This document shows positions 61,591 through 63,013 of a DNA stretch of 64,000 nt, one piece after another. Every line of letters starts with the position of its first letter. Position 1 is the first letter of the stretch. The translations under genes were made by a program, and so were the position numbers. The DNA comes from Verrucomicrobiota bacterium (GTDB lineage: Bacteria; Verrucomicrobiota; Verrucomicrobiia; Opitutales; Opitutaceae), in contig JACRKC010000021.1 of the NCBI GenBank assembly GCA_016235555.1, forward strand, positions 1 through 64,000, written 5' to 3'. Under the pieces are notes generated by a model. It ran no database searches. It had not been told where the DNA came from and worked only from the letters and a program-made list of their open reading frames with translations.

Positions 61591-61613
61591 TTTGTAACGT
61601 AATACGTTACAAA
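61591..61613. promoter_or_regulatory. Palindromic operator-like site A
   Basis: A perfect 23-bp palindrome: half-site TTTGTAACGTA, a central A, then its mirror. Between the HTH-like gene stop and the start of the 447-residue gene. Sites B and C share the core. Confidence 0.8.
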
Positions 61614-61635
61614 CCCTGCGGCGAACGCGGCGGCA

Positions 61636-62010
61636 CTACGCGAGGTCGTGGCCTTCGCTGCGCGTCTGGAGCCAGACCAGCAGCAACAGCGTCCGCTCGG
61701 CATCCGGAAGCTGGCGACGCGCGCGCAACATGTCGTGAAGCCGCTGACGGGGAAGCCCGAGGATGCGGGCGAGGCGGGATTTTTCGCCGCGACGGGAGAG
61801 TTGGGCCCGGGTGGCGGCGGCGAGTTCGTTCCAGAGCGGTGTGGCGGCGCCGGGCTTCAGGGTTTCGCCGCGGCGGGGCCGGTGCGCGCGGACCGCACTC
61901 TGCAACGACGCCCGGATCGACTTGGCGGCAGCCTCCATCAGCGCCACGGCGAGACCGGCCGGAATGTCGAGTTGGGCGGGGAGGCGGACGGGGAGGTGCG
62001 CGTTTTTCAT
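61636..62010 (-). CDS. Small helix-turn-helix-like protein flanked by palindromes
   Basis: 124 residues from the ATG at 62010. The C-terminal part (K-S-R-L-A-R-I-L-G-L-P-R-Q-R-L-H-D-M-L-R) reads as an HTH of the Cro/XRE sort, with recognition helix R-Q-R-L-H-D-M-L; an Arg/Leu-rich helix follows. The N-terminal half is helical with no known domain. The frame reaches back to a GTG at 62052 that lies in palindrome B, less likely as start. Perfect palindromes lie at 62050-62076 and 62129-62153 upstream and 61591-61613 downstream; binding is a prediction, not seen. Alternatives: a phage-type repressor or a partition-like factor. Confidence 0.65.
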   Translation of the reverse strand: MKNAHLPVRLPAQLDIPAGLAVALMEAAAKSIRASLQSAVRAHRPRRGETLKPGAATPLWNELAAATRAQLSRRGEKSRLARILGLPRQRLHDMLRARRQLPDAERTLLLLVWLQTRSEGHDLA

Positions 62011-62049
62011 CAGGCCCGACGTTGTCGACCGCGCCACCCGGTGCCAAGG

Positions 62050-62076
62050 CACTTGTAACGTATTACGTTACAAGTG
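62050..62076. promoter_or_regulatory. Palindromic operator-like site B
   Basis: A perfect 27-bp palindrome: half-site CACTTGTAACGTA, a central T, and its mirror. It ends about 40 bases before the ATG of the HTH-like gene, a typical operator position for autoregulation. Confidence 0.85.
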
Positions 62077-62128
62077 GCCGGAGCGGGGGCGGGTCAGCGG
62101 TTGGGATCGCGGGGGTGGAGCGAACCGG

Positions 62129-62153
62129 GTTTGTAACGTAATACGTTACAAAC
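62129..62153. promoter_or_regulatory. Palindromic operator-like site C
   Basis: A perfect 25-bp palindrome: half-site GTTTGTAACGTA, a central A, and its mirror. Its centre is 78 bp from that of site B, about seven and a half helical turns. Confidence 0.85.
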
Positions 62154-62221: not shown

Positions 62222-62743
62222 TCAGGCGATCAGGAGATAGACGCGGCGGTCGCCGGTGGTGGCGGGTTGGAGCGGGCGGATTTCCGCGGACTGGGGTTCG
62301 ACGAGGAGAAAATCGCCGTCGCACGTGATCATCCAGTTCATCGCGTGGGCGGCGGCGGCGCGGCCGGTCCAGAGTTCCTCGCCCCAGATGATGCCGAAGC
62401 AGTAGGCAAACTGGCGGCGCTTCTTCCGATAGGCGGCCTGGCAGAAATGGGATTTGAGCACGTAGGCGAAGTCCTCGCAGTCGAAGCGGAAGCGCGCGTA
62501 GTCCTGCGCGTCGAGGTGGCTGTTGCGGATGATGGTCCGGGCTTCGTCGGGATGGGGCAGGTAGTATTCGCGGTCGCCGAGGATGGCGCCGTGCTGGTAG
62601 GTCGGGTCCGGAATCCACCGGCCGCGGAAGAGTCGCGCGATATGCCGCTGGATTTTCTTTTTCGACCAATAGACGGGCTGGTGCCGGCGGGAGTGGTGCC
62701 AGCCGTGCAACCAGCGGCACTCGGAAGCGTTTTTTTTCGGCAT
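62222..62743 (-). CDS. Putative papain-like cysteine peptidase or transglutaminase-fold protein
   Basis: 173 residues, no signal peptide. F-D-C-E-D-F-A (Cys89), H-A-M-N-W (His133) and V-E-P-Q-S (Glu149/Gln151) are spaced like the Cys-His-polar triad of papain-like and transglutaminase-like folds, including bacterial proteins related to the MOA agglutinin C-terminal domain. The fold assignment is by motif only. The N-terminus is rich in Trp, His and Arg. On the minus strand between the 66-residue gene and the HTH gene. Confidence 0.6.
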   Translation of the reverse strand: MPKKNASECRWLHGWHHSRRHQPVYWSKKKIQRHIARLFRGRWIPDPTYQHGAILGDREYYLPHPDEARTIIRNSHLDAQDYARFRFDCEDFAYVLKSHFCQAAYRKKRRQFAYCFGIIWGEELWTGRAAAAHAMNWMITCDGDFLLVEPQSAEIRPLQPATTGDRRVYLLIA

Positions 62744-62812: not shown

Positions 62813-63013
62813 CTACCGGCGGGTCTTCTTTTTGGCCGGCTTCTTCTTCGCGGGCTTTTTCCTGGCCGGCTTCTTTTTCTTCTTCTTCCGCTTGTCGGGC
62901 TCTTTGGTGTCGTCGTCGGGTTCTTTCGTATCGTCGTCCGGTTCCTTGGTGTCGTCGGACCACAGCGCGAGCAGGGCGAGTTCGTCGTCGAGGCGTTCTT
63001 CTTCTTCTTTCAT
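62813..63013 (-). CDS. Small bipolar protein: acidic repeats plus histone H1-like tail
   Basis: 66 residues from the ATG at 63013. After M-K-E-E-E-E-R-L-D come three copies of the heptad D-D-T-K-E-P-D (21-base DNA period), then an abrupt switch to K-K-P-A repeats (P-A-R-K-K-P-A-K-K-K-P-A) ending K-K-T-R-R. The basic half resembles Lys/Ala/Pro-rich H1-like nucleoid proteins; the acidic half is unusual for these. It may be a DNA- or RNA-binding regulator or scaffold; it could also be a low-complexity frame, but repeats preserved in one frame argue for coding. Confidence 0.6.
   Translation of the reverse strand: MKEEEERLDDELALLALWSDDTKEPDDDTKEPDDDTKEPDKRKKKKKKPARKKPAKKKPAKKKTRR

Follow-up and report, generated by a model that had tools for sequence, protein, structure and literature searches.

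A small helix-turn-helix (HTH) gene and the three palindromes that bracket it (Table 1) lie in the window, the 64-kb stretch of an Opitutaceae draft genome (8.03 Mb, 140 contigs) analysed here. All three palindromes share the 21-bp core TTGTAACGTAWTACGTTACAA, perfect in each, with perfect matches to TTGTAACGTANTACGTTACAA at 61592-61612, 62053-62073 and 62131-62151. A search of the window allowing up to three mismatches found no fourth match, and the core is expected there by chance a mean of 0.00 times (100 shuffles). Two of the sites are upstream of the HTH gene, about 42 and 120 bp before its start, and the third lies about 23 bp past its stop codon, ahead of the next gene, which encodes 447 aa if read from an ATG and 475 aa if a GTG further upstream is the start. 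This arrangement, including the differing extensions at the palindrome ends and the lack of further copies in the 64 kb, had been described in a first-pass annotation of this DNA, and our analysis bears it out. A scan for sigma-70-like promoters, and for that type only, found none under the upstream sites. On that side of the HTH gene, the neighbouring gene (62222-62743, minus strand) has matches over the cut-offs to PF18021 (agglutinin C-terminal) and PF18022 (ricin-type lectin C-terminal), and 62813-63013 on the same strand encodes a small protein with DDTKEPD repeats and a lysine/alanine/proline-rich tail.

Table 1. Features of the HTH locus, in window positions.
Feature	Coordinates	Strand	Description
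HTH gene	61636..62010	-	124 aa; ATG at 62010, stop ends at 61636; XRE/lambda-repressor-like fold predicted
Predicted recognition helix, residues 88-95 (R88 Q R90 L H D M L)	61726..61749	-	Residues 88 and 90 co-vary with the palindrome
Palindrome TTTGTAACGTAATACGTTACAAA	61591..61613	.	Perfect, 23 bp; centre 33 bp past the HTH stop codon
Palindrome CACTTGTAACGTATTACGTTACAAGTG	62050..62076	.	Perfect, 27 bp; edge of the core about 42 bp before the HTH start; presumably the proximal operator
Palindrome GTTTGTAACGTAATACGTTACAAAC	62129..62153	.	Perfect, 25 bp; 78 bp centre to centre from the palindrome at 62050..62076

The HTH protein has no convincing match among the Pfam, NCBIfam and PHROG models (none over the Pfam or NCBIfam cut-offs), and no relative of solved structure was found by sequence; assignment to a known protein family was rejected on these grounds. 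The nearest Pfam signals for its family are YdaS_toxin and HTH_3, below cut-off or weak, with HTH_3 weakly matched in 4 of 13 members. AlphaFold2, run on 24 relatives, predicts an all-helical protein (mean pLDDT 81): a long helix at the N-terminus is joined by a basic linker to an HTH domain of four helices, in which helix 3 spans residues 88-95. The best fold matches in the PDB are mostly lambda-repressor-like DNA-binding domains, namely those of P22 c2, the 434 repressor, C proteins, SinR and HigA2; none is significant by E-value, although they are consistent in kind. We therefore place the protein, as a prediction from these models, in an XRE/lambda-repressor-like family that has no name in Pfam, NCBIfam or PHROGs.

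Relatives of the protein occur in 130 of 252 Opitutaceae genomes, with up to eight copies per genome, and none were found in the 13 other families of the order that were sampled. Named records are nearly all Opitutaceae or Opitutia MAGs, or bins labelled only as Verrucomicrobia, and one comes from a bin labelled Akkermansiaceae. Viral contigs yielded neither a relative of the protein nor a match to the palindrome, and a viral origin was rejected for this reason. No neighbour or partner family, toxins included, recurs next to the HTH gene. An operon with the neighbours and a toxin-antitoxin pair were accordingly both discarded as candidates. HigA/HipB antitoxins and YdaS-like HTH proteins do resemble the family through the YdaS sequence match (weak and below cut-off) and weak HigA2 and HipB fold matches, but they differ from it in that no conserved partner gene adjoins the genes studied here and no family model exceeds its cut-off. 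Since the neighbours vary between genomes and conservation is confined to the HTH-palindrome unit, the earlier proposal of a single switch that also controls the 447-residue gene finds no support.

To ask how general the bracket is, we scored odd-centred TAWTA palindromes beside the HTH gene in 107 non-redundant relatives with both flanks present. A palindrome was found upstream in 82 of these, downstream in 78, on both sides in 70 and on at least one side in 90; these counts are lower bounds, as palindromes more degenerate than the detector allows, or further from the gene, are missed. Some of the genomes are drafts, and a simple gene finder of our own supplied the gene calls. Applied to 33 HTH genes, the detector picked up 66 palindromes in 25.5 kb of adjacent DNA, against none in 51 kb of control sequence taken at those loci. 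The centre of the nearest upstream palindrome lies a median of 38 bp before the start given by the family model. The half-sites themselves differ between relatives (GTCACGTA, GTCACCTA, GTCACTTA, GTAACGTA, GTCAACTA, GTCATCTA, TTCACTTA and others), with 17 types over 91 loci and at least 37 changes on the protein tree. The first-pass annotation had reasoned that many copies unlinked to the gene, or sites lost where the gene is kept, would point to a mere dispersed repeat. Many unlinked copies do exist genome-wide, as described below, but relatives that retain the gene retain the sites as well, so the palindrome is not an unrelated dispersed repeat; with both bracket and specificity conserved, that candidate was rejected.

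The half-sites change together with the protein, without exception among the 91 loci. Residue 88, the first of helix 3, is Arg or Lys with G at half-site position -8 (85/85) and Pro or Ala with T (6/6). Residue 90 is Arg with C or T at position -4 (81/81) and Thr, Ala or Gln with A (10/10), a base that residue 87 also tracks. The association scores for -8 and -4 peak in helix 3, and no clean reader residue emerged for the weaker positions -3 and -6. Contact between arginine and guanine at the start of a recognition helix is textbook behaviour. On a protein tree built without the covarying columns, residue 90 and base -4 each change four times, residue 88 and base -8 each change twice, and the residue and base changes coincide. 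The independent pairs tested (3 and 1 on supported branches, respectively) are all concordant, although they are too few for a significant sign test. We take this covariation, which reads as a recognition code at residues 88 and 90, as strong evidence for binding of each HTH protein to its own palindrome. With the bracketing conserved as well, the HTH protein is the likely cognate binder, as the annotation had suggested.

Palindromes on the same side of an HTH gene are also spaced in a regular manner. The 42 non-redundant same-side spacings cluster near 46, 56, 66, 77, 88 and 100 bp, with a best period of 11.0 bp (R 0.60); none of 5000 random sets did as well. The 78-bp spacing of the upstream pair in the window fits this series. 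Such placement on the same face of the helix suggests cooperative binding to double-stranded DNA. Distances that span the gene are not phased, and looping phased across the HTH gene was rejected as a result.

Outside the locus, the 21-bp core is dispersed through the host genome. A genome-wide count, proposed in the annotation, gave 18 perfect copies (15 of them beyond the locus), none with one mismatch and four with two. Their consensus is GTTTGTAACGTAWTACGTTACAAAC, with no longer flank in common. They form 13 site clusters, of which 10 are intergenic and three lie inside genes as called by our simple gene finder; several copies fall within coding sequence, in readable frames.

What might such copies do? 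One possible answer, though to us a doubtful one, is that the protein is a conventional XRE autorepressor whose regulon is scattered, the dispersed copies serving as operators in the promoters of target genes. Palindrome-autoregulated XRE regulators are well known (PMC12565409), and the majority of intergenic copies have a gene start no more than about 250 bp away, with three loci in divergent promoters. Like the repressors of lambda and P22 and the restriction controller proteins, the protein has a predicted HTH fold, odd-centred upstream palindromes and spaced operators. However, the genes beside the copies form no coherent set (a gyrA end, a uvrA-like interior, rpiB-like and dipeptidase-like genes, identified by eye from translations), which is unlike a usual regulon, and the copies in coding sequence and the intergenic one after the gyrA-like gene also fit poorly. 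Moreover, relatives have the downstream site as often as the upstream one, which does not fit simple autoregulation; a conserved operator there, tens of perfect dispersed copies and the genome-wide co-switching described below set the system apart from known autoregulated XRE proteins.

A system that organises the chromosome, with parS- or matS-like sites, seems improbable. It would account for a dedicated binder with roughly 10-60 near-perfect sites in each genome, some of them inside genes; ParB/parS, MatP/matS, SlmA and Noc likewise pair a chromosome-wide set of palindromes with one binder. Yet the sites are spread round two complete chromosomes (G038 and G020), where uniformity was not rejected (KS p 0.34 and 0.30; Rayleigh 0.39 and 0.05), and the suggestion of a parS-like site with its binder is thus unsupported in the sense of a clustered centromere. 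The gene is also absent from about half of the Opitutaceae members and present in up to eight copies in others, unlike a vertically universal system with one binder, and site positions turn over between species.

Even less probable, to the point of being remote, is that the palindromes are bidirectional transcription terminators, forming RNA hairpins, that flank the gene by chance. Some do lie 20-50 bp after stop codons and give good hairpin folds. The search for terminator-like sites gave no call at the window palindromes, however; some copies are in coding sequence and others in divergent promoters, and terminators would not be expected to covary with a recognition helix.

The host genome encodes a second member of the family (C70:12012), 47% identical, with a palindrome of its own. 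This palindrome, GTCATCCATTAGATGAC, is asymmetric; counting closely similar forms, the genome has 59 copies of it, most of them in inverted pairs spaced 55-57 bp, and it too stands on both sides of its gene. An alignment of 14 pairs shows invariant ends around a spacer that has diverged, apart from a CCTCTGG/CCAGAGG motif present in either orientation in most pairs. Palindromic arms can also be long. Those of the bracketing palindromes are often perfect up to 22 bp, with locus-specific outer sequence, and past 12 bp every additional position pairs with a probability of about 0.7 (0.25 expected). At position -11 of the paralogue family, the halves match in 30 of 36 cases against 21.8 expected. 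Such arms exceed the footprint of a dimer, so dimer binding alone does not explain them.

These features recall REP/REPIN elements, where the gene always lies between copies of its own palindrome and the inverted doublets combine constant ends with a spacer that varies (PMC2817692, PMC3116915). Here too, a small gene sits between its own palindromes, dispersed copies and inverted doublets occur, and a genome may hold several private families. It is conceivable, though we would put the chance well below even, that the whole is a REPtron-like selfish system of self-copying palindromes, in which the HTH protein replaces the RAYT transposase or directs a host nuclease and regulation is secondary. 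The gene between its own palindromes, the many copies, the paired arrangement with conserved ends and diverged spacer, the long arms that fold as strong hairpins, the presence of copies within MITE-like repeats, and gains where relatives have none would all be explained. The protein, however, is of the HTH DNA-binding type and lacks the HUH/Tyr catalytic centre: Pfam Y1_Tnp matches neither the window protein nor 12 relatives. Nor does a RAYT of the host genome appear to act on the palindromes, a candidate rejected because, among ten Y1 transposase matches, none of the six loci checked has a palindrome beside it. Unlike REPs, the 18 host copies are symmetric sites of the GTTTGT...ACAAAC type that share no GTAG/GTRG head, copy numbers are lower (about 10-60) and spacings are helically phased, which points to binding of double-stranded DNA. 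The spacers of paired copies are mutually unlike, a poor fit to recent copying, and several orthologous copies have changed by point mutation in place. The system thus has the architecture of a REPtron and lacks both its enzyme and its GTAG head; it is REPtron-like in layout only.

The partnership can be followed between species in genus g46, six species of which have the HTH gene at a single conserved locus (for G120 the search recovered just one flank of this locus, and no HTH gene or palindrome was seen there). In G123 the orthologous bracket is of the GTCACTTA type, while its relatives carry GTCACGTA. The dispersed copies follow: GTCACTTA occurs 35 times in G123 vs 1, 0, 0 and 0 times in G124, G126, G121 and G120, and GTCACGTA occurs 9 times in G123 vs 29, 21, 11 and 0 times in the same four genomes. 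Within a glycosyltransferase-like gene, the switch has happened in place, with GTCACTTAATAAGTGAC in G123 and GTCACGTATTACGTGAC in the sisters, and half-switched sites are also present. Sister species have intact or point-mutated copies at the same positions, and other G123 copies stand where the sisters have none. Clean empty sites were not found in the sister species; orthologous positions are intact, mutated or not alignable. Taken together, the in-place changes and the copies absent from sisters show that the set of sites both evolves in place and turns over. Although this is one case, it suggests that the dispersed family tracks the specificity of the protein through evolution, and so is probably bound and maintained.

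We consider the most likely explanation, at a probability of roughly 0.7, to be a partnership of protein and site: an autoregulated dimeric HTH protein that acts cooperatively on phased private palindromes, which also form a REPIN-like dispersed family. The 124-aa protein would bind its palindrome as a symmetric dimer, with residues 88 and 90 of the recognition helix reading positions -8 and -4 of each half-site. Dimers on neighbouring palindromes would share one face of the helix and probably bind cooperatively. Binding at the upstream sites would most likely repress the promoter of the HTH gene itself; autoregulation is the natural reading of these sites. The site just past the stop codon is a regular second part of the bracket, and may act as a roadblock, in bridging, or as the operator of the gene that follows. 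The same palindrome is dispersed through the genome as singles and phased pairs, with 18 perfect copies for this protein and 59 for the paralogue. The analysis shows the layout of the locus, the conserved bracket, the covariation of residues and bases, the co-switching in one species and the helical phasing; dimer binding, cooperativity and autorepression are inferred. Two genomes (G001 and G004) contain such palindromes with no partner gene detected, which counts against this explanation.

A broader and much more tentative proposal is that Opitutaceae carry REPIN-like palindromic elements whose dedicated partner is a small HTH protein rather than a transposase. Several private and mutually specific pairs per genome would then co-evolve genome-wide through a readable code, and the partner would perhaps maintain or propagate the elements by binding phased pairs.

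The binding principle is already known, as autoregulated XRE-family proteins with palindromic operators have been described (PMC12565409). We found no described system of this kind in the literature on Verrucomicrobia, and in a mostly non-subscription literature no description of the two-sided bracket, a REPIN-like family with an HTH partner, the phased pairs or the genome-wide switching; these features are without a precedent that we could find. A protein family unnamed in Pfam, NCBIfam and PHROGs nevertheless has legible DNA targets. With sites on both sides of each gene, well over 100 pairs of protein and site are legible in genomes and available for tests of the evolution of DNA specificity, and G123, where roughly 35 sites match the changed specificity, is an uncommon natural example in which an entire set of sites has shifted along with its binder. 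Should the REPIN-like reading hold, a binding protein can keep dispersed palindromes with no transposase in the partnership.

Several smaller observations concern the repeats themselves. One complete relative has palindromes that repeat at intervals of 172-173 or 344-345 bp, as though they belonged to a longer tandem unit (G038:C1:470692-471053, 2177998-2178358 and 4103154-4103515). The CCTCTGG/CCAGAGG spacer motif adjoins T- or A-runs at loci L379, L382 and L388-L397 (at about 364-440), and motifs resembling it also lie beside palindromes in genus g46. Three similar coding regions (L379, L381 and L391) carry the paralogue's palindrome at apparently the same position, each time within an open gene call. 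Genus g46 also has a MITE-like repeat of about 115 bp (L189, L193, L195, L198, L202 and L217, at about 1145-1275 in each), with a central GTCACGTAWTACGTGAC palindrome between the terminal inverted repeats TAGTATTACTCTGTTA...TAACAGAGTAATACTA.
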